From an uncultured Lachnospiraceae bacterium (GTDB taxonomy: Bacteria > Bacillota > Clostridia > Lachnospirales > Lachnospiraceae), in contig CANQNN010000008.1 of assembly GCA_947625205.1 (NCBI GenBank), forward strand, positions 1-64,000: a stretch of DNA of 64,000 nucleotides, read 5' to 3'. Under the pieces are notes generated by a model, which saw nothing but the letters and a program-made list of their open reading frames with translations, was not told where the DNA came from and ran no database searches. This document shows, piece after piece, positions 1,555-51,229 of this stretch; the stretch's first letter is position 1, and each line of letters begins with the position of its first letter. The translations under genes and the position numbers were made by a program.

Positions 1555-3161
1555 TTACTGCATACTCAACTTAACCACTGCACAATCTCCTATCATCCGT
1601 ACAGAACCTTCTTGCGGAAATATGGGCATATTTTGATATTCCTGCGTTTGTTTTATTTCATCTATTGTCGTACATACAGTAAAATCTGCACCCAAATAAC
1701 TATTTAAAAAACCGACCCAGCAGGAATAACTTCCATTTGTGTCCCAAAAGTATCCGTAAGGCGCGACAGTACCCTTTGTTACATAAAAAAGGCTATCATA
1801 TTGATCGAGTTGTGGATAATTTCCACGTCCCGTATTTCCTGAGATCATAATCGGCATATCAGGATGATATTCCGGAAGAGCTTCCACCTGCATTACTATG
1901 CGCTGTGCCAATGCGTAATCTTTATTTAAATTGACCCTCAGAGCGTTCTGAAAAATCTGGGTAAAAAGTATCATAATGTGACACATATATATGGCAGCGG
2001 CAAATACCATCCATTTCACTATTTTCCTTCCGTACACGTTTGCATATTCTCCGGCTTTTCCCACGCTCAAAGCCAAAACAAAAAGGTACAAAAAGCTCAT
2101 ATGTGGCAGCATCAAAATACCTGTAGCCTGCTCTATAGATGCATCCGGAGCGTATACGGTAATACTCATAAAACACAAAGGAATCAAAATGGTTCCTGCC
2201 AAAGCCAGACAAACATTTATTACATTTTTCCTGTTTTGCCAGAGAAAAAACAAAATGATCCCTATGATAAGAGAAATAATGAAGCCGTTACATAACTCGC
2301 GTCTATGCCATGAATTTTGAACCAACTTATTTGTTAAAAAATAGTCGACAAAATAAATATATGCCTGTTTGATCTGTTTTCCAAGCCTGCTCCATTCAAT
2401 GATCCCCATTCGAGAAAATCCGCGGTCTCCTACTGGAAAAATGTCCTTATAAGCACAAAATATTTTGTATCCCAAAAGGTATATGGCAATGCCCAAACAG
2501 CCGCTTGCTAAAAAATAAATTCCTAATGTTGCAATCTTTTTCCAATCATCTTTACACCTGATCAATCTGTATAATAAATAAATCATACATAAGGTAATAC
2601 TTGTTCCCAAAAATGCCTGGTACAAGCAAAGCGAGCAGGACAAAAGCAATGCGCTCGCCAAAAAACACCATATTTTCTGCTTCTTAGATAAGATATATAC
2701 AAAACACACTGCAAAGAAATAAGAAATCATATACGCATCCGCTGTGTAATAATATGTCAATAAATTACACATAAACGGTGAACACATCATTAAGATGCCC
2801 AGAACCCCCCCCATATAGTTTGACGGATATCAAACATCTCACAAAATATCATAACGATCAGGCACATGAGAAAAATACAGAAAATAGTCTGAAATGCAGG
2901 CAAAATAATATAACTCTTCAACTTTGCAACATATTCAAGACCAACTCTTCCCAATCTTTCTTCCCAAGAATAATCTGTTTTATGTACAAGTCCGTTCCAT
3001 ACGCCATCAGGATTGGTAAGCCATTCCACTATCATCTGAATATATGCAAGAATACCTATAATAAAAGTAAAAATGCCAATTTTAAAATAAGGTTTCCATT
3101 GATCTGCGATCTTATCCCACATCATTTGTGGATCCATTAATTTTTCCAGTCTGCCGTTCAT
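1555..3161 (-). pseudogene. GtrII-family glucosyltransferase, interrupted at a G8 tract (possibly phase-variable)
   Basis: Two overlapping leftward reading frames together encode one polytopic membrane protein. The first (3161-2790) carries the N-terminal helices and the motif TNPDGVWNG. The second (to 1555) carries about eight more hydrophobic segments and a C-terminal soluble part. This matches the Glucos_trans_II family, membrane glucosyltransferases that decorate surface polysaccharide. The frame breaks at eight G (complement of 2805-2812). Nine G (or six) would join IRQTIWGG directly to the second frame and give a 535-residue protein, normal for the family. The start at 3161 has a good GGAGG 29 bp after ispD. 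The gene is more AT-rich than its neighbours, suggesting transfer. Alternatives are a true pseudogene or a homopolymer error in the assembly. Confidence 0.75.
2805..2812 (-). repeat. Homopolymer G8 tract inside the glucosyltransferase
   Basis: Eight consecutive C on the given strand (G in the coding strand) sit exactly at the break between the two reading frames. Runs this long are rare at this base composition. The only other run of eight G or C noticed in the window is at 51015-51022, again inside a surface-glycan gene. Confidence 0.85.
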
Positions 3162-3190
3162 TTGCTACATATCCTCCTTTGCGATAACAC

Positions 3191-3946
3191 TTACTGCTTT
3201 CCAAAAATTTTCTGCGCCAGCGTCTCCGCCACCGCCATGTCCTCCGGCGTAGTAACTTTGATGTTTTCATAAGAGCCCTGGACCAGTCCGACGGGCACAT
3301 CCATAAAGGTCTCTACCACCATAGCGTCATCCGTGATCCTGATCTTCTCTGCGTCCGTTCTGTTCTTCTGCGCCATCATTTTTTCATAAGCCTCTACTAT
3401 CAGAGAGGCATCGAATGCCTGCGGCGTCTGCACCTGCCACAGCATACTCCTGTCCGGCGTCTGCACCGCGAACCCGTCCGCGTCCACAAGCTTTATGGTA
3501 TCTTTTACGGGCATTCCCACCGCGCACGCCCTGCACGCGCACACCCTGTCATAGCATCGCTTCAATATCTCTTCTGTGAGAAAAGGTCTGGCGCCGTCAT
3601 GAATAAACACGTACCCGTCCATATTGCCCAAAGGCGTTGCCCCGTCACCGACGATGACCCTGAGCGCACGATACACGGAATCATACCGCTGTTCTCCGCC
3701 CGCCACAACAGCTCCGACTTTACTGAATCCGTACTTCATTACGATTTCTTTTTTAACATAAGAAATATCCTCCGCTGTGGTGACAAGAATACAGTCATCA
3801 ATGACAGAGGATTCTTCTATCGCGTGCAGCGCATACCAGATCAGGGGCTTGCCGCACAGGTCCAAATACTGTTTTGCGACGTCGCTTTTCATCCGGCTTC
3901 CTTTTCCTGCCGCCAGCACGATCGCAGTGCATCTTTTCTTATCCAT
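3191..3946 (-). CDS. ispD: 2-C-methyl-D-erythritol 4-phosphate cytidylyltransferase
   Basis: IspD joins CTP and methylerythritol phosphate in the non-mevalonate isoprenoid pathway. The 251-residue protein starts with the nucleotidyltransferase signature IVLAAGKGSRM, carries a Lys in VAKQYL and has the family motif HDGARPF near residue 116, all as expected for an intact cytosolic enzyme of usual length. The related ribitol enzyme TarI has a similar fold, but no wall teichoic acid genes adjoin it. ATG at 3946 is preceded by AGAAGGATA. It lies 50 bp after tsaD and 29 bp before the interrupted glucosyltransferase, so all three are probably co-transcribed. Confidence 0.92.
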   Translation of the reverse strand: MDKKRCTAIVLAAGKGSRMKSDVAKQYLDLCGKPLIWYALHAIEESSVIDDCILVTTAEDISYVKKEIVMKYGFSKVGAVVAGGEQRYDSVYRALRVIVGDGATPLGNMDGYVFIHDGARPFLTEEILKRCYDRVCACRACAVGMPVKDTIKLVDADGFAVQTPDRSMLWQVQTPQAFDASLIVEAYEKMMAQKNRTDAEKIRITDDAMVVETFMDVPVGLVQGSYENIKVTTPEDMAVAETLAQKIFGKQ

Positions 3947-3995
3947 TATCCTTCTACCCGTTTCGTTTCCTGTTCTTCCTCATTTATCCCGGATC

Positions 3996-5057
3996 CTATA
4001 TTCTCTCTCCCAGCTTCAGATTCGGAACGGCATTCAGGTCATATCCGTGGCGCACGCCATTACAGAACTCATAATACGCTGCGGCCCCGATCATCGCCGC
4101 ATTGTCGGTACACATGATGGGCGTAGGACGGTAAAAAGCGATCCCGTTTGCAGCGCACTCTTTTTCAAGCGCCGCCCGCAATGCCGTATTGGAAGCCACG
4201 CCGCCTGCAATGGCAAGCTTTTTCAGTCCGCACTCCCGCACCGCCTGCATGGAGTGTTCCACGAGAACGTCCACCACCGCTTTCTGGAAAGAAGCCGCCA
4301 CATCCGCCTGGCAGACCGAAATTCCTTTCATCTCGCAGGAATTCAGATAATTCAGCACTGCAGACTTTAATCCGCTGAAACTGAAATCATAGACAGCCCC
4401 CGCCACTTTAGCCCTGGGGAACTGTATCGCGTCCGGGTTCCCTTCTTTTGACACTTTATCGATCTTGGGGCCGCCGGGATACCCTAAACCAATAGCCCGC
4501 GCCACCTTGTCAAAAGCCTCACCGGCAGCATCATCCCTTGTGCGTCCGAGAATCTCATACGCGCCGTAATCTTTGACCCGTACCAGATGAGAATGTCCGC
4601 CCGATACGACAAGGCAGACGAAGGGCGGCTCCAGCTCCTTATTATCTATATAATTGGCGCTGATATGTCCCTCGATATGATGCACGCCGACAAGCGGAAG
4701 CCCTGACGCAAAGCTGATCGCTTTCGCGGCAGACACCCCGACAAGAAGCGCGCCTACAAGACCCGGCCCATATGTGACAGCAACAGCGTCCATCTGGTCC
4801 AGCTTTGTACCCGCTTCCTGTAAAGCTTCCCCGATCACCTGGCTGATTCTCTCAATATGCTTGCGCGATGCGATCTCCGGTACAACGCCGCCGTACAGTG
4901 TGTGCAGATCGATCTGCGAGGATATGATATTGGAAAGGACTTCCCTGCCGTTTCTGACAACTGCCGCTGCCGTCTCATCGCAGGAGCTTTCTATTGCAAG
5001 TATTGTAATATCTTTGTTGCCGCTATCTTTGTTACTGCATCGATTCTCTGTCTGCAT
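3996..5057 (-). CDS. tsaD: tRNA N6-adenosine threonylcarbamoyltransferase
   Basis: TsaD transfers threonylcarbamoyl to A37 of tRNAs that read ANN codons, working with TsaB and TsaE, both encoded upstream in this cluster. The ASKHA-fold protein shows [11 protein letters not shown] at the N-terminus, the metal-binding HIEGH motif, VSGGHSHL, the GYPGGP loop and AGGVASN near the C-terminus. ATG at 5057 is chosen over 5075 because AAGGTG precedes it; the predicted protein is 353 residues, normal for the family. Confidence 0.95.
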
Positions 5058-5087
5058 ATCGCACCTTATCCGCATGCTGCATCTTTA

Positions 5088-5660
5088 CTAGTCGTCCGCC
5101 AGCTGCCATCCATATATCTTCCAGTGGCCGTCCCCGTCTTTGCGCAGCACAAATTCTTCTACGGAGGGTACTGTACCCTTCGTCCCCTGTTTCACATTAA
5201 AAGTACAGTACAGTCTCGCGCACGAGTAGCCATTCTCCACAAACTCCTCAACGTCCACACTGGCAGACAGGACATAGCTCGATATAGTATAGTTTTCATC
5301 CTTCATATCAGCGATCTCGCTGCTTAAATCATTCAGATAGTCTTCCTGCGTCTTGTTCGCGATCAGCTCATCGTCATAGATACCCTGGATCTTCTCCGCC
5401 AGCTGGTTCAGTTCTTCTTTCGTATAATCTTCATTATAAAAGCACTGGGTGATCTCGGCAAAATATTTTACCACTTCCTTAGGCGTGGGCGGATAATTCT
5501 TTTCCAGATCCCGCAGCAGAACCTTCTGCACCGCAGTCGCCTCGGTATTTCTCTCCGCGTCCATTTTGGCCTTACGGTTCAGGTGAAATGCATACCCTGC
5601 AACCACAGCCACAAGAAGTATGCCGACTATCGCAATCGTAATTATTCCGGAACGTTTCAT
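5088..5660 (-). CDS. Hypothetical single-pass membrane protein (DUF6715-like)
   Basis: A 190-residue protein with one N-terminal membrane anchor (about residues 4-24) and a soluble extracellular domain ending in the motif WKIYGWQL. It resembles a Lachnospiraceae family I recall as DUF6715, but that name is from memory and unverified. The C-terminal domain looks NTF2-like, as in many anchored proteins of this size. ATG at 5660 is selected because AAAGGAG lies at good spacing; a longer in-frame start at 5711 lacks one. The gene sits between rnz and tsaD without an obvious terminator, so it is probably expressed with them. Confidence 0.6.
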   Translation of the reverse strand: MKRSGIITIAIVGILLVAVVAGYAFHLNRKAKMDAERNTEATAVQKVLLRDLEKNYPPTPKEVVKYFAEITQCFYNEDYTKEELNQLAEKIQGIYDDELIANKTQEDYLNDLSSEIADMKDENYTISSYVLSASVDVEEFVENGYSCARLYCTFNVKQGTKGTVPSVEEFVLRKDGDGHWKIYGWQLADD

Positions 5661-5740
5661 AATATCTGCTCCTTTCTCTGCCGTGTCAGAAAGTGCCCTG
5701 TCTGTTTTCACTTAAGCTCACCCGTTACAGCCCGGACAGA

Positions 5741-6649
5741 CTAATCTTCAAACAGAAGGTCTTTACTCCTTCCGTCTTTCGCCGCTACCGCATTAGGAAA
5801 TATCTTCCGTACGCCCTGTATATAGTCTTCGGGCCGGGTGAGAGACGGGCTGTAATGTGTCAGCCACAATTCCTTGACCCCTGCCTTCTTTGCAAGCTCA
5901 GCCGCCTCATAAAAGGTCATATGCTTATGTTCTTTCGCCTTCTGCAGCTTATCCGGCTCGCCGTACATGCCTTCGCATATAAAAAGATCCGCGCCTGCGG
6001 CTCCCCGCACAATACTTTCGGCAGGTCTTGTATCCGTACAGTATGACAGCTTAATTCCCTTACGGGGCTCTCCGAGCACCATAGCAGATGTGAATGTACC
6101 TTCTTCCGTCTCTATTATCTCACCTTTTTGCAGACGATTCCAGTAATTTCTGGGAATATTGAGTTTTTCCGCTCTGGCGACATCAAATTTCCCTGTGCGC
6201 TCCACCACGATGCTGTAACCGTAACAGGTGATGTTATGATTGACCTTATACGCTTCTATACGAAAGCCGTCGAATGCGATCGACTGTTCGTTTTCTGTCA
6301 GTTCCATACATCTGATCTCAAACGGCAGCCCCGGTGCGATCACACAAAGGGCGCTGACTACTTTTCCAAGCCCCTTCGGTCCGATCACCAAAAGCGGCTC
6401 CGTTCGCTCCGCATTCCCCATCGTCAGTAACATACCGGGCAACCCGCCGATATGATCCGCATGATAATGAGTAAAACAGATGATGTCGATGGGTTTCGGG
6501 CTCCATCCTTTTTTCTTCATTGCGATCTGCGTTCCCTCACCGCAGTCGATCAATATGCTTGTCCCGTTGTACCGCGCCATGAGCGATGTAAGCCACCTGT
6601 ACGGCAGCGGCATCATGCCTCCGGTACCCAATAAACAGATATCTAACAT
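5741..6649 (-). CDS. rnz: Ribonuclease Z (tRNA 3' processing endonuclease)
   Basis: A 302-residue metallo-beta-lactamase protein. The zinc motif THYHADHIGG, the later HNITCYGY, the Asp in YCTDTRP and the C-terminal LTHYSP motif match RNase Z, which trims tRNA 3' trailers and suits tRNAs without encoded CCA such as the two tRNA-Ser genes here. The start at 6649 fits the conserved N-terminus MLDICLLGTGG and has GGGAG upstream. A general MBL hydrolase of RNase Z type cannot be fully excluded. It lies in the tRNA-modification cluster between a zinc-ribbon protein and tsaD. Confidence 0.85.
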   Translation of the reverse strand: MLDICLLGTGGMMPLPYRWLTSLMARYNGTSILIDCGEGTQIAMKKKGWSPKPIDIICFTHYHADHIGGLPGMLLTMGNAERTEPLLVIGPKGLGKVVSALCVIAPGLPFEIRCMELTENEQSIAFDGFRIEAYKVNHNITCYGYSIVVERTGKFDVARAEKLNIPRNYWNRLQKGEIIETEEGTFTSAMVLGEPRKGIKLSYCTDTRPAESIVRGAAGADLFICEGMYGEPDKLQKAKEHKHMTFYEAAELAKKAGVKELWLTHYSPSLTRPEDYIQGVRKIFPNAVAAKDGRSKDLLFED

Positions 6650-6678
6650 ATACACTCCCGTTTTGCCGCAGCAGATGA

Positions 6679-6921
6679 TCAGAGCATTTCTTTTCTTTCC
6701 CACTCCTGTGGCGGGATCAAAAATCCTGCCGTCATTTTCCTGTAACAGTCCTCGCACAGATCAAGCTTGTGGCTAAGACCGTCCTTTGTTCCGAAAAAGC
6801 CGAAATCATGCTCCACATGAATACATTCTTCTTTCAGAAATCCATTTTCTACCAATAATTTTTTGCCGCAGCAGTTGCAATATACCTCGATCAATTCTTT
6901 TTGTTCCGAATAAACGCGCAT
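6679..6921 (-). CDS. Small zinc-ribbon protein, unknown function
   Basis: An 80-residue protein with two Cys pairs, CNCC near residue 15 and CEDC near residue 56, probably binding one zinc ion. No signal peptide or membrane segment is present. It lies between the tsaB-rimI fusion and rnz with short gaps on both sides, so it belongs to the same transcript. Function is unknown; nothing in the sequence points to DNA or RNA binding beyond the ribbon itself. Confidence 0.65.
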   Translation of the reverse strand: MRVYSEQKELIEVYCNCCGKKLLVENGFLKEECIHVEHDFGFFGTKDGLSHKLDLCEDCYRKMTAGFLIPPQEWERKEML

Positions 6922-6985
6922 GACAGACCTCCCATAATGTTACTTATTCCGCTAAGTCTCATTTTATCAAACAAAATCCGTAACA

Positions 6986-8230
6986 TCAGTGGTAATTGTT
7001 CCATGCACTGCCTGTCTCTTCCAGACGACCGGATGCGCCCTGTCTTTTCCACAGGATCATGGCATCCTCCGCAGGCTTCTCATAAAAACCGGGGCGTATG
7101 CCCTCCGATACGAAGCCAAGCTTCTCATACACATGGATAGCGGCGGCGTTGCTGACCCTGACCTCCAGCGTATACGCCGTCAGCCCCTCGCGGCCGCCCT
7201 CCGCCAGCAGATGCTGTAACATCCCGGTGCCGATCCCGCGATTTCTCATTTCAGGCCGTATGACCACATTGGTGATACTGCCTTCGCCCGCAACCATTAA
7301 CAGCCCGCAGCATCCCAGAAGCTCTCCGTCCTGCTCCGCCACATAGTATCTGGCGTCTTTTCTGCCGATCATGTCCAGGAAATCCTGTTTAGACCACGGC
7401 ATGGAAAAGGTCTCCTCCTCCAGCCTGCTAATGACGGGAACATCCTCAGGTGTCATTCTGCGGTATATGACGCGCTGCGCCTGCTGTGGTGGTTCTTCCT
7501 TCGTTCCGCCATCCTGCTGCGCCTGTTTCTCACTGCGCTCTCTCTCCGCCTGGGACAGCCGCAGATACTCCGGCACATGCTCCGCGCCGCTCACAGCCCT
7601 GCCCTGAGCGTAATAGATGCTTCCAAGAGCGGCAATACAGGCTGCCGACTGTCTGTTTCTATGCGCCGGCGCAAGGGAATAGGGCGCCTGCATGATTTCT
7701 CCCATACGGTCTTTGAAAACAGGAATGCCGTCGCCGGTAAATATGACTTTTCTCCCGATCCCGTTCAGTTCCTGTGCGATCTCGTCAAAAGACACGGCGC
7801 ACTGTCCTTTTATGACGCGCATGTCATATCCATTCTTACCTTCCACGAACTCATAGATTCCCGTATAGACCTGATTCCTTCTGGCGTCCATGATCGGGCA
7901 CACCACTGCATCCGTGCCGTACATCTGATAGGCAAGCCCCTCCAGTGCAGGCACCGGTACGATCGGTTTCTCCATAGCGAAAGCCAGTCCTTTCGCCGTC
8001 GCCGACCCGATACGCAGTCCCGTAAAGGATCCCGGCCCCGCCGCCACTGCCACCGCGTCCACGGTGGACAGATCAAGCTCTACCATATCCCGTATTTGCG
8101 CCAGCATGGGAAGGAGCGTCTGTGAATGGGTCTTTTTATATTGTATGGTGTACTCAGCGATTAAATTATCATTTTCCACCAGCGCCACGGACGCCACCAG
8201 TCCGGAGCTGTCCAATGCCAGAATTTTCAT
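6986..8230 (-). CDS. tsaB: TsaB-RimI fusion (t6A factor plus ribosomal-protein N-acetyltransferase)
   Basis: A 414-residue two-domain protein. Residues 1 to about 225 are TsaB, the non-catalytic ASKHA partner of TsaD in t6A synthesis (MKILALDSS and AGPGSFTGLRIG). After a charged Q/E/A-rich linker (about 225-255), residues 255-405 form a GNAT acetyltransferase of the RimI type with the acetyl-CoA loop RNRGIG and YEKLGF. RimI acetylates the N-terminus of ribosomal protein S18. tsaB and rimI are often adjacent; here they are one polypeptide. It lies 78 bp after tsaE. Confidence 0.92.
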   Translation of the reverse strand: MKILALDSSGLVASVALVENDNLIAEYTIQYKKTHSQTLLPMLAQIRDMVELDLSTVDAVAVAAGPGSFTGLRIGSATAKGLAFAMEKPIVPVPALEGLAYQMYGTDAVVCPIMDARRNQVYTGIYEFVEGKNGYDMRVIKGQCAVSFDEIAQELNGIGRKVIFTGDGIPVFKDRMGEIMQAPYSLAPAHRNRQSAACIAALGSIYYAQGRAVSGAEHVPEYLRLSQAERERSEKQAQQDGGTKEEPPQQAQRVIYRRMTPEDVPVISRLEEETFSMPWSKQDFLDMIGRKDARYYVAEQDGELLGCCGLLMVAGEGSITNVVIRPEMRNRGIGTGMLQHLLAEGGREGLTAYTLEVRVSNAAAIHVYEKLGFVSEGIRPGFYEKPAEDAMILWKRQGASGRLEETGSAWNNYH

Positions 8231-8307
8231 AGTTATACAGCCTCGCTATCCACTGCCCTATATCTCCCGCTCTGCCAGACTTTGCCTGACGCGGTCCAAT
8301 ATCCGCC

Positions 8308-8745
8308 CTATGCCGTCCCGCATTCCGCAATCGTGATCTTACGGTAATCAAAGCCCTTTTCCAAATCCTTCTCGATGGTGATCCTGTGATAAGCAGGCGG
8401 CAGAATATCCTCGATCAGATCCGCCCACTCGATCATGCACACCCCATCACCATAAAAATAATCCTCATAACCGATCTCGTCCATTTCCGCCACGTCACCG
8501 ATACGGTACACATCGAAATGGTATAAAGGCAGCCGTCCCTCATCATAGATCTGCAGAATGGTAAACGTAGGGCTGCTTACCGGTTCATCTATGCCAAGTC
8601 CCGCAGCGACCCCCTGTGTGAATACCGTTTTACCCACGCCCAGATCGCCGGTCAGCGTATACACATCTCCTGCCCTGGCGTGAATACCTATCTGCCTGCC
8701 GAATTCATAAGTTTCTTCAGCGCTGTTCGTTTCTATCACTTTCAT
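8308..8745 (-). CDS. tsaE: tRNA t6A biosynthesis ATPase
   Basis: A 145-residue P-loop ATPase that powers turnover of the TsaB-TsaD complex. It has Walker A GDLGVGKT near residue 33, the family motif SSPTFTI, and EWAD in the Walker B region. Length and motif order are normal. It is the first gene of the t6A set and is transcribed leftward with tsaB-rimI and tsaD, so this cluster encodes three of the bacterial t6A factors; TsaC/Sua5 is not in the window. Confidence 0.94.
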   Translation of the reverse strand: MKVIETNSAEETYEFGRQIGIHARAGDVYTLTGDLGVGKTVFTQGVAAGLGIDEPVSSPTFTILQIYDEGRLPLYHFDVYRIGDVAEMDEIGYEDYFYGDGVCMIEWADLIEDILPPAYHRITIEKDLEKGFDYRKITIAECGTA

Positions 8746-8831
8746 ATGTGCCCCGCTTCATGTGCCTTTCTGCCCCGATATCTTCGCGCGCTTTTCCGCG
8801 CAGCCGGTCTTCATGTACGCCCCGGCCGCTG

Positions 8832-9311
8832 TCAGCCCCTTATCTTCACTTTCTTCGGCGGCATATGCGTGGAGATGATCTCGATCACCTTATATCTGGC
8901 GTCCCCCATGTCCTTCTTCGGAAAGATACACGCATTGACCGGCGTTGTGTACACTACGATGCTGGCGAACGTGGAAACCGCCTTAACCATACTGTCCCAG
9001 TCCGTCCGCTCCGTTGTGCCGTCCTGCGATACCTCGATGCCATCGTCGGACAGGCGATAGTGCAGCGGCTTCTTAAACGCCGGCGTGGCGAGCGCCTGAC
9101 GGCTTGATTTAACAAAAAGCGTCCACGGGAGATACAGCAATATAACAAGCCCGGCGATCAGACATATCGGCTGCCGGTTAGATGCATAAAGCACAAGTAT
9201 CAGCACGCCCACGACCGACCCCACGATACCCGGAAGCTTCGTATAAGTGTGATACATCATATAATCGTATAAAATGCCTGCGGTGATCTTTACATCGAAC
9301 TCCGTTTCCAT
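8832..9311 (-). CDS. YcxB-like membrane protein
   Basis: A 159-residue protein with two adjacent membrane segments (about residues 27-62) and a C-terminal PH-like domain that ends in a basic PPKKVKIRG tail, a layout typical of the YcxB-like family. Function of the family is unknown. The ATG at 9311 is chosen because the mature-like N-terminus METEFDVK begins there and AGGGGAT lies upstream; a longer frame to 9410 runs into the upstream hairpin. It precedes tsaE by 86 bp. Confidence 0.6.
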   Translation of the reverse strand: METEFDVKITAGILYDYMMYHTYTKLPGIVGSVVGVLILVLYASNRQPICLIAGLVILLYLPWTLFVKSSRQALATPAFKKPLHYRLSDDGIEVSQDGTTERTDWDSMVKAVSTFASIVVYTTPVNACIFPKKDMGDARYKVIEIISTHMPPKKVKIRG

Positions 9312-9402
9312 CAGGAGACATCCCCTTTCACGCCGGACAGACCCATGACAGTCGGCCTGCGATCCTTTTGTCTGACGGCGCATGCTTTTCTTCTCTTGAT
9401 AA

Positions 9403-9432
9403 GAAAGCACCTACATCGTAGGTGCTTTTACC
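9403..9432 (-). terminator. Rho-independent terminator after the HlyD-like gene
   Basis: AAGCACCTAC and GTAGGTGCTT form a perfect 10-bp stem with a three-base loop. Read leftward it is followed by TTTCTTATC. It separates the transporter genes (9495-12690) from the t6A cluster. Confidence 0.75.
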
Positions 9433-9494
9433 TTACTCTCTATTATACCGAAATTCGCAAGAAGTGCAAGAAAAAGAAACGAGGGCTGCACGCG

Positions 9495-10811: not shown

Positions 10812-10887
10812 CTGTTCCTCCGTATGGTCTTACTCCTCCGGTCCGGGCAGCGCCTCCGGATACCCTGTTATTCTCCAAATACTGCCG

Positions 10888-36910: not shown

Positions 36911-41598
<4,688 letters not shown>

Positions 41599-41781
41599 AT
41601 CAGATACCTCCGAAGGTTATTATACGCATATGCCGCCAGATACCGCGCGGCAGACTCCCATGAAAATATAGGAATATCATATAACAAAAAGGGGAAAGTT
41701 TCAAGGGATGGTTATTTTTATTTCTTCTTTCTGAAAAATTTTTCTTTATGAAAAATTAACAGAATGTTTCTCTGCGCTGTA

Positions 41782-41810
41782 TTGACAATATTTTTTACTG
41801 TAAGTATGAT
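41782..41810 (+). promoter_or_regulatory. Sigma-A-type promoter for the gene at 41863
   Basis: TTGACA (41782-41787) and TATGAT (41805-41810) are 17 bp apart and lie about 50 bp upstream of an ATG with GACAGGGG before it. The rest of 41599-41862 holds no other feature. Confidence 0.65.
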
Positions 41811-41862
41811 TGATAAAGGTACGGCACGGGCTACCGCGCAATGACCGGACAGGGGTATAAAC

Positions 41863-42678: not shown

Positions 42679-44108
42679 AGAAGCTCCTTTAAAAGCCGGT
42701 TGACCATAGCGGGATCCGCTTTTCCTTTCATGGCCTTCATGGTCTGCCCGACAAGGAATCCGACCGCTTTTTCTTTGCCGTTATGGTAATCCTCCACAGA
42801 CTGCGGATTCGCAGCGATCACTTCCTCCACGGTTTTCTTCAGCGCGCCTTCATCATTGACGGTCTTCAGGCCCTTTTCCTCCACATACTGTTCCGGATCG
42901 ACATTCGTATCAAACATCACCTCAAATACTTCCTTCGCCACGGAGCTGTTGATTGCCCTGGAATCCGTAAGAGCTATCAGCTTAGCAAGATTTTCCGGTG
43001 AAAAACGCAGGTCCTCCACCTCTACCTCTTTTTCCTTCATAAGACGAAGCGTTTCTCCCATCAGCCAGTTGGAAACCTTCTTGGGCTGTCTGCAGATCGC
43101 CATCGTCTCCTCAAAGAGATCCGCCATGCGCTTCGAGCCTGTGATGATCTCAATGTCGTAATCGGGAATATCATATTCTTCCTTATAGCGCTTCATTTTC
43201 TCGCTCCGGAACTCCGGCTGTCTGGACCTGATATCCGCAAGCATCTCATCACTCACCACAATGGGCACCAGATCGGGATCCGGGAAATAACGATAATCCT
43301 GCGCATCCTCCTTGCTTCTCATAGCATAGGATTCGCCCCTGGTATCGTCCCATCTTCTCGTCTCCTGAATAACCTTTTCCCCCGACTCGATCAGGTCTGT
43401 CTGGCGTTCCGTCTCGCCCGCGATCGCTCGGGAAATCGCCTTGAAGGAATTTAGATTCTTCATCTCAGTTCTGGTGCCAAATTCCCTGGCGCCCACCTCG
43501 CGCACAGACAGATTGACGTCAGCACGCATAGAGCCTTCCTGCAGTTTACAATCGGAGGCCCCCAGATACTGAATGATCAGACGAAGCTTTTCCAGATACG
43601 CTATCACTTCTTCCGCGCTTCGCATATCGGGTTCGGAAACGATCTCGATAAGCGGTACACCGGAACGGTTATAATCTACAAGCGAGCAGTCTTCCCATTC
43701 GTCATGGATCAGCTTACCCGCATCCTCTTCCATATGGATCTCGTGAATGCCAACGGACTTTACGCCGCCGTCTTTCGTTTCGATCTCTACACTCCCGTTT
43801 CTGCAGATGGGCAGATACAGCTGTGATATCTGATAATTCTGCGGATTGTCCGGATAAAAATAATTCTTCCTGTCAAACTTGGCGTAGCGCGTGATATCGC
43901 AGTTAGTTGCCAGTCCTACCGCAATGGCATATTCCAAAACCTGTTTATTGAGCACAGGAAGAGAGCCCGGCATACCGGTACATACCGGACAGGTCTGTGT
44001 ATTGGGTCCGGCGCCAAAAGCCGTGGAGCATCCGCAGAAAATCTTTGTTTTGGTGGCAAGCTCCACATGCACCTCCAGACCTATGACTGTCTCATATTCT
44101 TTAGCCAT
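42675..44108 (-). CDS. gatB: Asp/Glu-tRNA amidotransferase subunit B
   Basis: The 477-residue kinase/tRNA-binding subunit of GatCAB, which converts Glu-tRNA(Gln) or Asp-tRNA(Asn) to the amide. It shows VIGLEVHVELATKTKIFC, the zinc or metal CSTAFG and CPVCTGMPGSLP motifs, KNYFYPDNPQNYQISQ, and a C-terminal YqeY-like helical domain. The start directly abuts the gatA stop, and order is gatC-gatA-gatB on this strand. Confidence 0.96.
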   Translation of the reverse strand: MAKEYETVIGLEVHVELATKTKIFCGCSTAFGAGPNTQTCPVCTGMPGSLPVLNKQVLEYAIAVGLATNCDITRYAKFDRKNYFYPDNPQNYQISQLYLPICRNGSVEIETKDGGVKSVGIHEIHMEEDAGKLIHDEWEDCSLVDYNRSGVPLIEIVSEPDMRSAEEVIAYLEKLRLIIQYLGASDCKLQEGSMRADVNLSVREVGAREFGTRTEMKNLNSFKAISRAIAGETERQTDLIESGEKVIQETRRWDDTRGESYAMRSKEDAQDYRYFPDPDLVPIVVSDEMLADIRSRQPEFRSEKMKRYKEEYDIPDYDIEIITGSKRMADLFEETMAICRQPKKVSNWLMGETLRLMKEKEVEVEDLRFSPENLAKLIALTDSRAINSSVAKEVFEVMFDTNVDPEQYVEEKGLKTVNDEGALKKTVEEVIAANPQSVEDYHNGKEKAVGFLVGQTMKAMKGKADPAMVNRLLKELL

Positions 44109-45575
44109 TTATCCGACCTCCTTTACTGCCATAGGGAACGGGCCTCTTATTTGCTCATAAGTATACGCCGTCTGTATCAGTCTCTTCTCCTGAAAACAGT
44201 CTCCGATCAGCTGCAGCCCTATGGGAAGGCCGTTCTTATCCGCGCCGCACGGAAGACTGATTGCCGGAAGACCCGCCAGATTTACCGCTATTGTATAGAT
44301 GTCGCCCAGATACATTTTAATGGGATCCGCCAGGCTGGAACCCAGCTTCGGCGCCGTAGTGGGCGCTACCGGCCCTAAGATCACGTCATATTTGGAAAAA
44401 GCATCGTCAAACGCCTTCTTGATCAGCGCCTTAACACGCAGCGCCTTCAGATAATATGCATCGTAATATCCCGAGCTGAGCACAAAGGAGCCGAGCATGA
44501 TACGCCGCTTTACCTCCTGTCCGAATCCCTCCGAACGCGTTTTCTTATACATGTTGTGAAGACCCGCATAATCTTCTGTGCGGTAGCCGTATTTAATACC
44601 GTCGAAACGCTCCAGGTTGGAGCTTGCCTCTGCCGCCGCGATCGTGTAGTAAGCGGGGATCGCATACTCTGTCAGGCTTAAGTCAAACTGCTCCACAACA
44701 GCGCCCTTCTTTTCCAGCCCGTCCGCAGCCTTCAGCACGGCATCCTTCACTTCCCCGTCCAGGCCGTCCCCGAAATAATCGCGCGGGATCCCGATGCGCA
44801 TTCCCTGCACATCATCCTTGAGCGCAGACATAAAATCAGTGTCATGACGCTCTATGGAAGTGGAATCCTTGACGTCATAGGACGCGATCGCTTCAAGCAC
44901 CGCGGCGCAGTCCGTAACATCCCTGGTCAGCGGTCCGATCTGATCGAGCGAAGAACCGTAGGCGATGAGGCCGTAACGGGAAACCGTACCGTATGTGGGC
45001 TTCATCCCCACTGTTCCGCAATAGGATGCGGGCTGTCTGATAGAGCCGCCGGTATCGGAACCCAGCGCATAAAAGCACTCATTTGCCGCCACCGCCGCCG
45101 CGGAACCCCCCGATGAACCTCCCGGCACATGATCCGTATTCCAGGGATTTTTCGTCACGCCGTATGCGGAAGTCTCCGTAGTGGACCCCATAGCAAACTC
45201 ATCCATATTGGTCTTTCCCAGGATCACCGCCCCGGCTCTCTGCAGATTAAGCACCGCTTCCGCAGTGTACATGGGAACAAAGTTACCCAGGATCTTAGAG
45301 GAACATGTGGTAAGCATTCCCTCCGTACACATATTGTCCTTGATCGCCACAGGAACGCCCGCAAGCGGTCCGTCAAGCTCTCCCGCCTCGATCTTGGACT
45401 GCACTTCTTTTGCCTGTGCCAAGGTCTTCTCCCGGTCCACCGTCACATAGCAGTTATACGTCTTATCCAGTTTTTCTATACGGTCAAGCATGGCTTCGGC
45501 CGCCTCCACAGAGGTTGTCGTTCCCGCTCTGATCGCTGCCGCAAGCTCCACTGCCGTCATATCCGTGATACTCAT
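44109..45575 (-). CDS. gatA: Asp/Glu-tRNA amidotransferase subunit A
   Basis: The 488-residue amidase subunit that supplies ammonia from glutamine. The Ser-cisSer-Lys amidase triad is visible: Lys in VAIKDNMC, Ser in PGGSSGGSAAAVA and the Ser in SDTGGSIRQPA. ATG 45575 is favoured from AAAGGAGAA and typical length; the frame continues upstream to 45701. It follows gatC by 73 bp and abuts gatB. Confidence 0.96.
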   Translation of the reverse strand: MSITDMTAVELAAAIRAGTTTSVEAAEAMLDRIEKLDKTYNCYVTVDREKTLAQAKEVQSKIEAGELDGPLAGVPVAIKDNMCTEGMLTTCSSKILGNFVPMYTAEAVLNLQRAGAVILGKTNMDEFAMGSTTETSAYGVTKNPWNTDHVPGGSSGGSAAAVAANECFYALGSDTGGSIRQPASYCGTVGMKPTYGTVSRYGLIAYGSSLDQIGPLTRDVTDCAAVLEAIASYDVKDSTSIERHDTDFMSALKDDVQGMRIGIPRDYFGDGLDGEVKDAVLKAADGLEKKGAVVEQFDLSLTEYAIPAYYTIAAAEASSNLERFDGIKYGYRTEDYAGLHNMYKKTRSEGFGQEVKRRIMLGSFVLSSGYYDAYYLKALRVKALIKKAFDDAFSKYDVILGPVAPTTAPKLGSSLADPIKMYLGDIYTIAVNLAGLPAISLPCGADKNGLPIGLQLIGDCFQEKRLIQTAYTYEQIRGPFPMAVKEVG

Positions 45576-45648
45576 ACCGATTCTCCTTTTGGGTTCCGGA
45601 AACCCCGTCTTATGCCAAAGACCTTTACCGTACTGACCGAAGCAGCCT

Positions 45649-45942
45649 TTAGTCAAAAGTCTTCGGGACCATAAACATTCCGTCTTTCTGTTCCGGCGCA
45701 TTGGAAAGCAGCCGTTCTCTCATATCTCCGTTTGTCACTACATCCTCGCGGAACACATTCTGTACGGGAAAAACATGGGACATGGGTTCGACTCCCGTCG
45801 TGTCCAGTTCCCCGAGCTTGTCGATATAATCAAGCATCCTTCCCATATCGGACTTGGCCTGCTCTTTCTCTTCGTCAGACAGCTCCAGCTTCGCCAGAAT
45901 GCCTACATATTCAATTGTCTCATCACTGATGATATTTGCCAT
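45649..45942 (-). CDS. gatC: Asp/Glu-tRNA amidotransferase subunit C
   Basis: A 97-residue protein that links GatA and GatB. It begins with a [23 protein letters not shown] segment ([15 protein letters not shown]), has [12 protein letters not shown] and ends with VPKTFD, the usual C-terminus. It heads gatCAB and lies 48 bp after aspS in the same direction, so aspS and gatCAB are probably one T-box-controlled operon. Confidence 0.94.
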
Positions 45943-45990
45943 GATCTGTTATCCTTTTATCTTCTACTATACTGAACTGTTATACCGTTT

Positions 45991-47742
45991 CTATGCCCTG
46001 ATCTTGATGTGCACTTCCCGAAGCTGCTGCTCCGTTACTTCGTTCGGTGCGCCGCACATAAGATCCTGTGCCGTTCCGCTCATCGGGAATGCGATCACTT
46101 CTCTGATATTCTCCTCATTCCGCAGAAGCATGATCATACGGTCTACTCCCGGCGCCATGCCCGCATGCGGCGGCGCGCCGAACTGGAACGCATTATACAG
46201 AGCGCCGAATTTATTTTTCAACGTCTCCTCATCGTAGCCCGCGATCTCAAACGCTTTGACCATGATCTCCATATCATGGTTGCGGACCGCGCCGGAGGAC
46301 AATTCCACACCGTTGCACACAATATCATACTGATAAGCCAGTATATCCAGAGGATCCTTGGTCTTGAGCGCTTCCAGTCCGCCCTGCGGCATGGAGAACG
46401 GGTTGTGCGTAAAGCCGATCTGCTTAGTGTCCGGATCCAGCTCATACATGGGGAAATCATTGATGTAGCAGAAGCGGTATGCATTTTTCTCGATCAGATC
46501 CAGCTTCTGCCCCAGCTCGGTACGGATCTGCCCCGCGTAATAAGCCGCCTTATCCTCCTTATCCGCGATAAAGAATATGGTGTCGCCCGGCTTAAGATCT
46601 GCCAGACTCGCCAGCTCGCCTTTTTTCTCATCGGGAATAAACTTATCAATGGGTCCCTTATAACTCATATCCTCTGCCGCTACCAGATAGCCGAGTCCGC
46701 CCATTCCCATATCCGTTGCAAACTTTAACAGCTTTTCATGAAAGCCTTTAGACATATCCGCATGGACCTTGATCGCGCGGACAGTCCGCCCGTGGAAAGG
46801 CTTGAACGTACATTCCTGGAAGAACTCTGTCAGGTCAATGATCCGAAGCGGATTCCTGAGATCCGGCTTATCCGTACCGAACTGAAGCATTGCCTGCTTG
46901 TAGCTGATAATGGGATAAGGCGCTTTCGTCACTTCATATCCCTCGGGCGCAAACTTTTCAAATGTTGCCGACAGCACTTCCTCACCGGCGCGAAACACAT
47001 CCTCCTGCGTTGCGAAGCTCATCTCGAAATCCAGCTGGTAAAATTCTCCCGGCGAGCGGTCGGCTCTCGCATCCTCATCGCGGAAGCAGGGCGCGATCTG
47101 AAAATACTTGTCAAATCCCGACACCATTAAGAGCTGCTTATACTGCTGCGGCGCCTGCGGCAAAGCATAAAATTTTCCTTTATATTTTCTGGACGGCACG
47201 ATATAATCTCTGGCGCCCTCGGGCGAAGACGCGCATAGGATCGGCGTCTGGATCTCCAGGAATCCCATCTGTGTCATTTTTTCCCGTAAGAATGCAATCA
47301 CCCGGGAACGGAAAATGATATTGTCCTTCACCTTCTGATTGCGCAGATCCAGATAACGGTATTTGAGACGCACGTCTTCTCTCGTTTCCTTGGAAGTCAT
47401 GATCTCGAAAGGAAGCTGTTTGTACACCCGTCCGAGCACGTCTACCTTATGCGCTTCCAGTTCGATCGTACCGGTCGGAATGCGGGGATTATAAGTTTCC
47501 TCGTCCCTGTGCTCGATCAGGCCTTCGATCGACACGCTCATCTCACGGGATAATCCGTTCAGAAGAGTCGTATCCCGCATAACTACCTGAAGCACGCCGT
47601 ACATATCGCGCAGATCCACAAAAGATACGCCGCCGTGGTCCCTGATATTCTCTATCCATCCCGCCACACGAAGTTCCTTTCCTATATCAGCCTCGCTGAT
47701 CTGTTGTAATGTTACATCTCTGTAAATGTTCTGAGTTGTCAT
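45991..47742 (-). CDS. aspS: Aspartyl-tRNA synthetase
   Basis: A 583-residue bacterial-type class IIb synthetase. It has an OB-fold anticodon domain (about 1-105; VAGWIENIRDHGG and FVDLRDMYG), class II motif 2 (FRDEDARADRSPGEFYQLD), the GAD insertion (about 290-420) and motif 3 GMAPGVDRMIMLL. Adjacent gatCAB suggests that Asp-tRNA(Asn) may be made here and amidated, i.e. a non-discriminating enzyme, but this cannot be read from the sequence. ATG 47742 has AGGAGGG upstream. A T-box precedes it. Confidence 0.96.
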   Translation of the reverse strand: MTTQNIYRDVTLQQISEADIGKELRVAGWIENIRDHGGVSFVDLRDMYGVLQVVMRDTTLLNGLSREMSVSIEGLIEHRDEETYNPRIPTGTIELEAHKVDVLGRVYKQLPFEIMTSKETREDVRLKYRYLDLRNQKVKDNIIFRSRVIAFLREKMTQMGFLEIQTPILCASSPEGARDYIVPSRKYKGKFYALPQAPQQYKQLLMVSGFDKYFQIAPCFRDEDARADRSPGEFYQLDFEMSFATQEDVFRAGEEVLSATFEKFAPEGYEVTKAPYPIISYKQAMLQFGTDKPDLRNPLRIIDLTEFFQECTFKPFHGRTVRAIKVHADMSKGFHEKLLKFATDMGMGGLGYLVAAEDMSYKGPIDKFIPDEKKGELASLADLKPGDTIFFIADKEDKAAYYAGQIRTELGQKLDLIEKNAYRFCYINDFPMYELDPDTKQIGFTHNPFSMPQGGLEALKTKDPLDILAYQYDIVCNGVELSSGAVRNHDMEIMVKAFEIAGYDEETLKNKFGALYNAFQFGAPPHAGMAPGVDRMIMLLRNEENIREVIAFPMSGTAQDLMCGAPNEVTEQQLREVHIKIRA

Positions 47743-47816
47743 GATGCCCTCCTTTATTCTGGCTGCGCCCATCACGCCGCCGGTGCGGCGCAGCTTACGG
47801 CTCTGCTTATTCGCGC

Positions 47817-48095
47817 AAAAAATCCCGGAATACATTAATGTATTCCGGGACGGATATTTATGATTATCCGCGGTACCACCCGCCTTGATAAGCAAAGGAT
47901 CCGCGCGGATGCCTTTGGCCTTATCCTCTCAAAGCGCTTAACGCGCGCAACGTATCACCCTGACGCATACGGTGCGGTTCGAATGATCTGCTCCGGAGTG
48001 TTCCCATCCTGTTTCCCACAAACAGCGCTCTCAGTCGCCGGCGCCGTATTCCTGTCGCTTTCCGCAGGGCGAGTCTCCTTCATAGCATTTGCAAC
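47817..48095 (-). promoter_or_regulatory. T-box riboswitch upstream of aspS
   Basis: The antiterminator box GGGTGGTACCGCGG (complement of 47868-47881) stands before a strong terminator: TCCCGGAATACA and TGTATTCCGGGA (47823-47850) followed by six T (complement of 47817-47822). Stem I lies in about 47950-48090, with AGAGCG-type bulge and lower stem ATACGG/CCGTAT. Candidate specifier triplets in the loop are GAU and AAC, so the sensed tRNA is Asp or Asn; I cannot decide which. Confidence 0.92.
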
Positions 48096-48096
48096 T

Positions 48097-48125
48097 TATA
48101 TATCATATAAATGATCAAAATGCAA
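48097..48125 (-). promoter_or_regulatory. Promoter for the aspS T-box transcript
   Basis: Reading leftward, TTGCAT (48120-48125) and TATATA (48097-48102) are separated by 17 bp and precede the T-box leader by a few bases. Confidence 0.45.
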
Positions 48126-48151
48126 CCTTTCTATGCAAAAAAAGATAAAAT

Positions 48152-48529
48152 TTATGATCTGGCTACTGGACCCGTATACTGCGCATCGCCGAAGCCAAGT
48201 ATCGCCAGAAAGATAACCGGGAAGAACAGGATACCGATACCGAATCCCACGCCTTTACCGAACGCCTGCGCCAGCTTGATCCACATAATGATCAGCATGA
48301 TCATATTGACACACGGTACAAACGTCAGCAAAAACAGCCAGCCGTTCCCGAATGTCATTTCAAAAAGACAATACATATTATAAAAAGGCACAATAGCGCC
48401 CCAGCCCGGTTTGCCCGCTTTCACAAAAATCTTCCACTGGGCAATCAGTATGATAACCGCAACCGCAAGCACAATAATAGAATATATCCCACTGCCTGCA
48501 AGTGCCGCTGATGATAAATAATTTTCCAT
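48152..48529 (-). CDS. DUF5684-like small membrane protein
   Basis: A 125-residue polytopic protein with three or four membrane segments. It contains FVKAGKPGWGAIVPFYNMYCLFE-like elements (KAGKPGWGAIVPFYN), the pattern of the DUF5684 family, and a Gly/Ala-rich C-terminal half ending LGFGDAQY. Function is unknown. It stands alone upstream of the T-box in the same direction. Region 48530-48685 carries no other gene. Confidence 0.7.
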   Translation of the reverse strand: MENYLSSAALAGSGIYSIIVLAVAVIILIAQWKIFVKAGKPGWGAIVPFYNMYCLFEMTFGNGWLFLLTFVPCVNMIMLIIMWIKLAQAFGKGVGFGIGILFFPVIFLAILGFGDAQYTGPVARS

Positions 48530-48685
48530 CTTTTTCCCTCCTCACAAGAAAATATGGATTTACAGTTTTAAAAAGCTATCGTCGCCGTTTCTAATTACGG
48601 CAACGCCATAATCATAACAAAAACCGTCAAATTTTGCAACAGGAATCCTGATGCTGAAATGTATAGCTGAAATGTATAATATTAT

Positions 48686-49756
48686 TTATCGATAAAGGCT
48701 GTCATAATCATAATTTTCATAAAAGTATGCTATTTTTTCCAAATATGCCTCATAATTATCGCCGGTAAGCTTTCCCCTGCCTTGCGCTATCCACCGTAAT
48801 ATATCTGTATTTACATCCTCGCCGTAATGCGCCTGATCCCGGTAATTGTCCAAATCACTGACCAATTCAAAATCATCGCAGAAAGAATATAATTCTATAT
48901 TAGGGTAAGGCAGCAACAGCTCGATAACCTCCTGTTGAATCTGTATTTCCTTCCGCACCGTTCCCGTCTGTGAAAGTCCATCCCAATAGCATATACTGTA
49001 TGGTGTCAAAAATAATATAAATTCCGTATTGGGGTATTTTTTCACAAGCTCCACTATATTTTGTTCGACATTTCCCCTGATCTGCTCTCTTTCTTCGTCA
49101 CTCAGCAGGATAACGCAATCCGCTTTATCCTGCCTGACATAAGTGGAGAGCACTGTTTCCTTTCCAAAATCAAACCCGTCATTCCAGTTTGCATATCTGT
49201 CAAAGGAAAACTCCGATTTTCCTCTTGTCAGCGCCACAAACAGATCAATCATGCATCCTTTAAAAAGAGCATTTTTGCTTAACAGATAATTAACATCATT
49301 TATTGAATTATCATCATACAGATAATCCAGACAGATATTATATTGGGCTGAATCCTTATCCGTATTCATTTTGCTCAAATCCAGACCGCGCAGTATCATT
49401 TTTAAATTAGGATTACAAACCAGGGCTTTTTCACTTAAATCATTTATATCCTTGAAAGTGCTTCCAGAAAGAGGCAGTTTTACGGAATGCACATCAAACA
49501 AACTGTCAAACTCACTAGTTTTAAAATTTTCAGTCATAGAGGAACCCGTTATTACGGCATTATATTCAAAATTCTTTATAATTCCGCTGTTTAAGCAGCT
49601 TTCCACATCAGTCTCCGTAGTAGTATGAAAAATCAGACCGTGCGTTGCCTTTCTGTAATGCATAAAAGGGTCTATAATGAAAACGCATAGAATGCATACT
49701 GTAAAAACTATTGTCAAATTCAGAATCATTCCCAAAAACCATTTTTTTGAATCCAT
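48686..49756 (-). CDS. Membrane-anchored SGNH-like protein, probable MBOAT partner
   Basis: A 356-residue protein with one N-terminal membrane anchor (about residues 8-30, ending FIIDPFMHY) and an extracellular alpha/beta domain. The motif ITGSSMTENF (about 67-76) supplies a GxS nucleophile region like DltD/AlgX/SGNH acyl-handling partners, and DQAHYGEDVN near residue 312 may hold the catalytic Asp-x-x-His. It follows the MBOAT gene after 19 bp. In known pairs the MBOAT passes an acyl group across the membrane and the SGNH-like partner moves it to a surface polymer. ATG 49756 has GGAAGG upstream. AT-rich relative to neighbours. Confidence 0.72.
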   Translation of the reverse strand: MDSKKWFLGMILNLTIVFTVCILCVFIIDPFMHYRKATHGLIFHTTTETDVESCLNSGIIKNFEYNAVITGSSMTENFKTSEFDSLFDVHSVKLPLSGSTFKDINDLSEKALVCNPNLKMILRGLDLSKMNTDKDSAQYNICLDYLYDDNSINDVNYLLSKNALFKGCMIDLFVALTRGKSEFSFDRYANWNDGFDFGKETVLSTYVRQDKADCVILLSDEEREQIRGNVEQNIVELVKKYPNTEFILFLTPYSICYWDGLSQTGTVRKEIQIQQEVIELLLPYPNIELYSFCDDFELVSDLDNYRDQAHYGEDVNTDILRWIAQGRGKLTGDNYEAYLEKIAYFYENYDYDSLYR

Positions 49757-49775
49757 TTTTCCGCCCTTCCTTAAA

Positions 49776-51229
49776 TTAAAAGCCAAAATAAATAAAATCA
49801 GATTCTCCCGCCAGAGAAAGTATCGACCATACAAGTAAAATCATTGTTCCCCAAAAATTTCTTATGCACGGCCGAAATTTTTTCATACAACAGGGCCGAA
49901 TCACAAAAATCGTGAAAAAACCAATAAGTAGAAAAACAATTCCCATATAGGTTCTGGAAAGAACATAATTCTGAGCAAACAGATAGTTGATCAGTTCTGT
50001 TTCCATTAAGGAAAATTTTGCGGCAAGTTCTCCGGATATTCTTCCCACTCCTCCGCTGACAACCTTCATCAATACCCTGCCCGCCTGTGAAAGAGAGTCA
50101 GCCCTGAAGATTACCCAGGTTAAATTAAGAAAAATAAACGTGCCCGCCCATCGGAAAATCCCAGGCAGGCAGTCCCATTGCTTTTTAAATATTCGATTCA
50201 GCACACTTGCTATCCCATGCAGTGTGCCCCATACCACAAAAGTCCAGTTAGCTCCATGCCACAATCCGCTGATCAAAAATACTACCATTACATTCAAGTA
50301 AGTCCGGAGCCTGCCTTTACGGTTCCCTCCCATCGGTATATAGATATATTTCTGCAAAAATCCGGTAAGCGTCATATGCCACCGCTGCCAAAATGTCAAA
50401 ATATCATATGCCCGATAGGGTGAATTAAAATTTAACGGAAGCTTAAAATTAAACATTTCAGCCAACCCAAGAGCCATATCACTGTAGCCGCTGAAATCAA
50501 AATAGATCTGAAAAGTATATGACAGAATCACTACTATGGCATCCACGCTATTCATAACGCCAATATTCCCAAATCCCCAATTTACCGCTTTTGCAAACGT
50601 ATCCGCCAGAAGCACTTTTTTAAATAGTCCAACCGCGAAAAGCGCTAAACCTGCTGCCATATTATCATAATTAATTTTTCTTTTGGACAGGTCTCTCATT
50701 TGACCTATCAAATCCCTTGATACGATAGGGCCTGCCACCAACTGCGGGAAAAAAGTTACAAATTCCGCATAGTCTATAAACTGAATCTGCCATTCTTTTG
50801 ATTCGTCCCGATATACATCCACCAGAAAACCTATCTGTTGAAAAGTATAAAAACTAATTCCCAGAGGCAAAAGGATTTTTTTCAGGAAAATATTTGTGTG
50901 AAAAATCACATTGATATTATCTATGAAGAAGTTAGTATATTTGAAATACAATAGAAGACCTATATTAAAACACAAACCTAAAATCAATATATGTTTTCTG
51001 TCTTTGCAGTACCTCCCCCCCCTATTATTTTTGCAATTCCATAATTCACAATGACACTGATACAAATAACAGCCAAGTAATACCAATTATAATACCCATA
51101 AAAAAATAAGGAAGCAACAACAAGAAATACCTGCGCTCCTTTATGCTTCCCTATGGCATTTATCCCGAAATATCCCAACCATACAACAGGCAGGAACATC
51201 AACACAAAATAATAGGAATTAAACAGCAT
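49776..51229 (-). pseudogene. MBOAT O-acyltransferase (AlgI/DltB-like), interrupted at a G8 tract (possibly phase-variable)
   Basis: Two overlapping frames together encode one MBOAT protein. The first starts at ATG 51229 (GGGAGGG upstream) with MLFNSYYFVLMFLPVVW and reads through IAKIIGGGG before running out of frame. The second continues from RYCKDRK with LLYFKYTNFF, LPLGISFYTFQQIGFLVDVYR, SGYSDMALGLAEM, FWQRWHMTL (with the MBOAT His region) and the catalytic-His segment SGLWHGANWTFV. The break is at eight G (complement of 51015-51022); nine (or six) restores a 484-residue enzyme of typical AlgI length. Such enzymes move acetyl groups onto exopolysaccharide or teichoic acid. The downstream SGNH-like gene is its likely partner. 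Error or true decay are alternatives. Confidence 0.8.
51015..51022 (-). repeat. Homopolymer G8 tract inside the MBOAT gene
   Basis: Eight C on the given strand mark the point where the N-terminal MBOAT frame fails and the C-terminal frame should continue. The length and off-phase register are the same as in the tract at 2805-2812. Confidence 0.85.

Follow-up and report, generated by a model that had tools for sequence, protein, structure and literature searches.

An uncultured Lachnospiraceae bacterium (assembly GCA_947625205.1; here G000, a 2,908,702-base draft in 44 contigs) carries 78 poly-G tracts of 8–10 G, which very probably are contingency loci that switch by slippage. Two of them lie in the window, the stretch of 64,000 nucleotides that we analyzed (contig CANQNN010000008.1, here C8, positions 1 to 64,000 of the forward strand), within a GtrII-family membrane glucosyltransferase gene and an MBOAT-family O-acyltransferase gene. 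In the mechanism we propose, a tract would gain or lose a G during replication; in a coding gene the change in length would shift the downstream part into or out of frame, and in a promoter it would alter the distance between the -35 and -10 boxes. Nine G would be the usual in-frame (on) length, with G8 and G10 mostly slipped, off forms. Slippage would be frequent and reversible and the enzymes would act on surface glycans, the main output being a mixed population of cells that differ in surface-glycan decoration, while some regulators and a DNA methyltransferase would also be switched.

A search of both strands of the window for runs of seven or more G found exactly two, each of 8 G on the minus strand and each inside a protein-coding gene; the scan found no G or C run of 7 or of more than 8. 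The first tract (2805..2812, minus strand), one of the genome's 12 G8 tracts, lies in the GtrII-family gene. The 5' piece of this gene (2790..3161, minus strand) loses frame just past the tract and matches positions 26–80 of Glucos_trans_II (E 2.3e-6; 27.4 bits, just below the curated cut-off of 30), while the 3' piece (1555..2814, minus strand, with a mechanically listed start that falls within the tract) matches positions 78–313 of the same profile (PF14264, E 4.7e-23, above the curated cut-off). Since the two pieces match adjacent parts of PF14264 in different frames, the gene is split out of frame. The second tract (51015..51022, minus strand), also one of the 12, lies in the MBOAT gene. 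Here, the 5' piece (50984..51235, minus strand; likely ATG at 51235, placed by eye against a paralogue) stops 28 nt past the tract and is coding, with a score of 14.6 over 243 nt in a frame that differs from that of the 3' piece (49776..51014, minus strand), which carries the MBOAT match (PF03062; scanned as 49776-51086, E 2.5e-30, above the curated cut-off). Both genes are otherwise open for more than 1,200 nt downstream of the tract, with coding scores, and both are off in the sequenced consensus. These results bear out an earlier note on this DNA, which had described the only two G8 runs in 64 kb as lying off-phase within a glucosyltransferase and an acyltransferase gene, one G short.

The same note had held two such runs to be unlikely by chance, which the window does not support: dinucleotide shuffles gave a mean of 8.54 G7 matches against the 4 observed, with at least 4 in 91 of 100 shuffles. 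As the two window tracts are not surprising by this measure, the argument shifts to the whole genome, the only scale at which the departure is visible. That both are G8 is mildly unusual, G8 making up 12 of the 78 genome tracts; they share the off state because in-frame tracts of this genome usually have nine G.

Exact counts of G runs over the whole genome, on both strands, gave no G7, 12 G8, 60 G9 and 6 G10, with none longer. In 379,585 bases made up of the window and fetched stretches that cover all 78 tracts, G or C runs of length 4, 5, 6, 7, 8, 9 and 10 numbered 1007, 145, 2, 0, 12, 60 and 6, whereas A and T runs in the same bases fell off smoothly up to length 9. Ten tract-free control stretches (60,010 bases) held no G or C run above 5. 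Eighty neighbor loci of relatives (934,369 bases) showed ordinary decay, with 77 runs of length 6, 6 of length 7, none of 8 and 1 of 9; the best 80 matches of one window protein in named genomes were mostly labeled as Lachnospiraceae metagenome-assembled genomes, many bearing animal-gut names, the closest at 95% protein identity. Run lengths are therefore bimodal, with a near-gap at 6–7 and a peak at 9 that exceeds background decay, and the unusual feature is the presence of sixty G9 alongside zero G7. The 600 nt around tracts have a median GC of 0.43, compared with 0.51 in controls.

Reading frames set this class apart. By our frame rule, under which a flank counts as coding when its codon score is at least 5 over at least 60 nt, 36 tracts are coding on both sides, 27 on one and 15 on neither. 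Among the 36, G9 tracts are in frame in 22 cases and off in 6, G8 tracts in 0 and 5, and G10 tracts in 1 and 2 (G9 against G8 and G10 together, 1 in and 7 off, Fisher p 0.0013); a stricter score of 8 leaves G9 at 21 in frame and 6 off, and G8 and G10 together at 1 and 5. The in-frame share of G9, 22 of 28, is far above the one-third expectation (p 1.2e-6), which indicates selection for on states. Under the same rule, 106 of 112 G5 runs are in frame and 6 off, and runs of at least seven are in frame at 46 sites and off at 2 for A, and in frame at 32 and off at 1 for T, or 3 off in 81 for both together. Frame breaks are thus a peculiarity of long G runs, whose in-frame members usually have nine G.

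We listed the genes that contain tracts throughout the genome and scanned 80 proteins or pieces adjoining 76 of the 78 tracts against Pfam, counting the unscanned tracts 59 and 68 as negatives. A hand tally places 25 of the 78 tracts in glycan- or envelope-modifying families, against 2 of 40 control genes (Fisher p ~0.0009). These are MBOAT (1), GtrII (1), Acyl_transf_3 (5), GT87 (1), YfhO (1), GT2 (2, one with a pyruvyl transferase), formyltransferase (2), FkbM methyltransferase (3), other methyltransferases (4), hexapeptide or PglD acetyltransferases (2), DegT aminotransferase (1), polysaccharide deacetylase (1) and LytR-CpsA-Psr (1); three of the matches (tracts 7, 35 and 72) fall under Pfam cut-offs, and the large membrane proteins DUF2142, DUF6056 (2) and DUF6020 were left outside the tally. 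Control genes were 40 drawn at random from 48 in tract-free stretches picked at round coordinates. The two that counted adjoin each other; beside them, two GDSL hydrolases, a Mur ligase and an asparagine synthase went uncounted, as did a Mur ligase near tract 25. Tracts are enriched in surface-structure genes, with glycosyl-, acyl-, methyl-, formyl- and aminotransferases among them; the note had named enrichment in the first three of these classes as the outcome of a genome-wide scan that would support its proposal.

The wider proposal, of a genome-wide system that varies surface glycans, is supported, but the system is broader than glycans. Other tract genes encode response regulators, histidine kinases, a GGDEF-EAL protein, AraC and LacI regulators, radical SAM proteins, an esterase and a phage-type Dam methyltransferase, and many have no assigned function. 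The tally also rules out that every tract gene is a glycan gene, since 53 of the 78 tracts lack such a domain. One stretch is dense in tracts: nine G9 tracts lie within 23 kb on C11 (L060, G000 C11:31000-50000, and L061), in genes that include an FkbM methyltransferase, a formyltransferase, GT2, DegT and DUF6056, in what is likely a large surface-glycan locus.

Some tracts sit in promoters. We scored a tract as such when it fell within a 15–20 bp spacer between TTGACA and TATAAT boxes with at least 10 of 12 positions matching, and six of the 78 do so, against 0.39 expected from random positions; one of the six (L042) is inside a coding gene, and in four the spacer is 19 bp long. Of the two promoter tracts of G254, another species of the genus, one resembles our L077, with 9 versus 10 G and equal spacer length by eye, and the other (L228) precedes a homologue of the gene behind our tract 33. 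In Neisseria, porA-type promoters carry a homopolymer between the -35 and -10 boxes that sets their spacing and so promoter strength; unlike in that arrangement, spacer tracts are a minority here, and the four best cases are at 19-bp spacing. Tracts are placed where a change in length would alter expression, in reading frames and in promoter spacers.

Comparison with relatives indicates that related lineages differ in tract length at shared sites. MBOAT relatives are present in all 77 genus genomes searched. Among 29 congener MBOAT loci examined, 27 have no G or C run of at least 7 and two have one, a G10 in L175 (G287) and a G9 in L180 (G261); a statement based on 7 loci, that congener genes lack the run, was therefore wrong. 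In both genes, which are 46% identical to the window's at the protein level, the run falls between the two membrane stretches that also enclose the window run. The G9 of L180 is in frame, while in L175 the frame before the G10 is not continued after it, so that about one MBOAT site is represented in three genomes as G8 off, G9 on and G10 off. For the GtrII gene, a search of the 76 other genus genomes at E <= 1e-50 found no close homologue for tract comparison, the sole match being a distant one in G256 (30% identity).

In G254, fetched stretches totaling 272,745 bases hold 81 G9, 2 G8, 1 G10 and 1 G7, numbers in which G8 and G10 are undercounted as the stretches were picked by their G9 tracts; G9 is in frame at 22 of 32 two-sided coding tracts. 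Fourteen of our tracts have a protein-level match in these stretches, and 7 map near a G254 tract: within a few bases for tracts 3, 24, 30, 70 and 76, shifted by 18–30 bases for tract 50, and at the promoter tract 33, where G254 has one promoter and one coding tract. Lengths differ at tract 24 (8 in our genome, 9 in G254) and tract 30 (10 and 9). Tract 24 (L045:2444-2451) was dropped as a clean case of frame switching: by eye, a second one-base difference from G254 lies ~30 nt on, a second frame change in our copy.

Tract 63, a G10 at the end of the phage-type Dam gene, offers a viral comparison. We found 18 viral Dam relatives and inspected the tract site in 12, of which three have a run at the same spot (G8, G9 and G8), two have one slightly further on (G11 and G8), five lack a run there, and two stop short of the site. 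The viral contigs L257 (G9) and L258 (G8) are 95% identical over 2,872 bases and, over ~150 bases around the tract, identical but for one G. Searching viral contigs for the exact flanks of the Dam tract returned no match. A further relative (L271) carries a G9 run at 2185, at a different place in the gene, meaning that runs arose more than once in the Dam gene family.

The tract class is unevenly spread. At least one G9 tract occurs in 137 of 250 family genomes (ours included), mostly 1 or 2 per genome, the outliers besides ours being G146 (105), G107 (23), G029 (20) and G173 (14). The first of these belongs to another genus of the family and, with 105 G9 in 1.6 Mb at 68% completeness, has the most of the 250; its tract set is possibly a separate expansion. 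Within our genus, 53 of 60 genomes have at least one G9 and 11 have at least 20, led by G254 (81), G263 (63), and ours and G259 (60 each). The number of G9 exceeds that of G7 in 31 of the 60, equals it in 2 and is below it in 27, and an anti-correlation between the two counts was sought and rejected (rank correlation -0.03). Among tract-rich genomes, G7 is low in some (ours 0, G263 0, G261 1, G269 1, G268 2, G259 4, G281 5, G280 7) and higher in others (G254 10, G289 15, G272 20), so that purging of G7 is supported for some of them only.

Three other explanations of the window genes or of the tract class were weighed against slippage contingency loci. A systematic miscall of long G runs, too short or too long, would leave both window genes intact, and the earlier note had named under-calling as the artefact to exclude first. 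It would suit the off state of the G8 genes beside a mostly in-frame set of G9 genes; it would not yield a separate class that peaks at 9 with none at 7, and A and T runs of at least 7 are off frame at just the three sites given above. The class also recurs in other genus genomes, and site lengths differ among separately assembled genomes and viral contigs. We consider a miscall very unlikely, and reject sequencing error as the source of the class on the shape of the run-length distribution and the A/T and G5 controls. It is also unlikely, though less so, that the two window genes are simply dying, as ordinary pseudogenes with one frameshift each in the G run, in a genome whose tract class may be real. 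Both genes are off in the sole genome seen, the search of the genus genomes turned up no close relative of the GtrII gene, and the second frame change at the tract 24 locus means that decay does occur somewhere. Yet both genes remain open and coding beyond the tract, decay should bring further lesions rather than strike long G runs alone, and a congener MBOAT gene has an in-frame G9 at about the same site. Between these two in probability, and improbable in our view, is that the tracts are fixed sites of RNA-polymerase or ribosome slippage, each G9 gene giving a fixed mixture of products. The strong preference for exactly nine (60 of 78) would follow from it, as would the dominance of G9 in the G9-selected stretches of G254, but not the differences in tract length at the same site between relatives, and tracts between -35 and -10 boxes would not be transcribed from that promoter.

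Several points weigh against reading the tracts as slippage contingency loci. The species is seen as one consensus genome, and switching is proposed from its sequence. Nine is not invariably the on length, six genes with a G9 being out of frame; 42 of the 78 tracts are not two-sided coding, and just 5 of those are in a promoter by our rule. The absence of G7 is in itself unremarkable, the median over 60 genus genomes being 5 and the count zero in 5 of them. Gene classes were tallied by hand, and tract genes occur in clusters (14 tracts on C11), so that tracts are not independent and the Fisher p of ~0.0009 overstates independence. In G254, just 2 of 84 tracts are in a promoter by rule, both at 19 bp, and some tracts there belong to a prophage-like region or to genes for small peptides, a placement that does not fit a surface-glycan pattern. 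Finally, all 16 genomes tested, whether rich or poor in tracts, have an open MutS gene that scores above cut-off (TIGR01070); loss of MutS, the one mismatch-repair component checked, is rejected as the cause, and a high slippage rate is left without that explanation. With MutS intact, ordinary slippage of long G runs, perhaps with a bias toward length nine, is the most likely source.

A bolder reading, which we offer tentatively and think somewhat more likely to be wrong than right as a whole, is that part of the genus actively holds its tracts at nine. Runs of 6–7 G would be unstable and either grow to nine or be purged, with MutS intact, so that any gene with a long G run would become a switch, in a whole-cell lottery possibly expanded separately in several species. 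If so, each cell would carry tens of independent switches over surface glycans, signaling proteins, promoters and prophage DNA methyltransferases.

The best-known cases of phase variation at G tracts come from small-genome Gram-negative pathogens, and the phase-variable classes of Campylobacter include FkbM-type methyltransferases and formyltransferases. Our findings are best read as a large poly-G slippage system of a known kind in an unexpected family, the Lachnospiraceae. In the PhasomeIt study of the Campylobacter phasome, poly-G lengths peak at 9 (53%), with ten at 26% and 77% of tracts in open reading frames (ORFs), and strains have 5–81 variable genes (PMC6321876); another report describes a single C. 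jejuni population in which the tract of a galactosyltransferase gene has 8 or 9 G (PMC6437147). The system here shares with Campylobacter poly-G as the main repeat type, the peak at 9, the presence of G rather than C on the coding strand, and, by the proposed mechanism, frame switching. It differs in being found in a Gram-positive family with intact MutS, in its narrower lengths (8–10, none at 7 or above 10), in having 36 of 78 tracts coding on both sides by the frame rule where the Campylobacter account places 77% in ORFs, and in that its tracts extend to genes for two-component and c-di-GMP proteins and to promoter spacers. In Bifidobacterium breve, one or two pilus clusters per genome carry G9–G12 tracts subject to replication slippage that determines whether the pilus is made, with a mix of lengths seen by deep sequencing (PMC9187656); common to both are an intragenic G tract, a Gram-positive gut commensal and a surface structure, while here there are 78 tracts, mostly in other gene classes and identified from sequence. 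The invertible promoters of gut bacteria are reported to turn surface and c-di-GMP genes on and off at random as well, by DNA inversion rather than tract slippage. A survey of 99 genomes found poly-G tracts to be generally under-represented (PMC2831843).

No prior report of poly-G contingency in Lachnospiraceae was found in the literature searched, which covered few subscription journals or preprints; the paper that surfaced for Lachnospiraceae with tract-related words concerns Campylobacter tracts (PMC6437147). If the tracts switch as proposed, a repertoire matching the largest in Campylobacter would be present in ordinary gut Lachnospiraceae, and strain or species averages would mask very large cell-to-cell differences in surface sugars, which would matter for phage, for IgA and for host contact. 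Genes that look "broken" in such genomes may in many cases be switches rather than pseudogenes.

Directly downstream of the window MBOAT gene lies a gene (48686..49756, minus strand, start by eye) that has no tract and that we take to be an SGNH-type partner of MBOAT, by analogy with AlgI/AlgJ and DltB/DltD modules. By blastp (48686-49834) it is 53% and 52% identical to two paralogues on contig C3, which flank a paralogue of the window MBOAT gene (64–67% identity) and each carry an in-frame G9. The C3 MBOAT gene has no G or C run of at least 7, the only two runs of that locus (L043) falling outside it. Copies of the module with tracts in different genes fit separate origins of the tracts and selection for a switch in the module. 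Likened to AlgI/DltB systems, the MBOAT module may acetylate a glycan, as we assume from that analogy.

Two G254 stretches hold further runs. One (L195, G254 C1:11000-17500) is an array of similar short genes with runs at 1835, 2220, 2746, 3272, 4118 and 5164, four of them G9 (three exactly 526 bases apart) and two G8, at or near the Gly-Gly of a leader-like peptide that is presumably Nif11-like. The other (L218, G254 C11:68500-79603) is prophage-like and has eight G9, several in pieces that by eye resemble a DNA cytosine methyltransferase gene; judged by eye, these tracts may be switches or decay within the phage. In the window itself, the last 16 kb are AT-richer and contain the MBOAT locus and, close to the window end, an ORF that by eye is transposase-like (62206-63540, minus strand).

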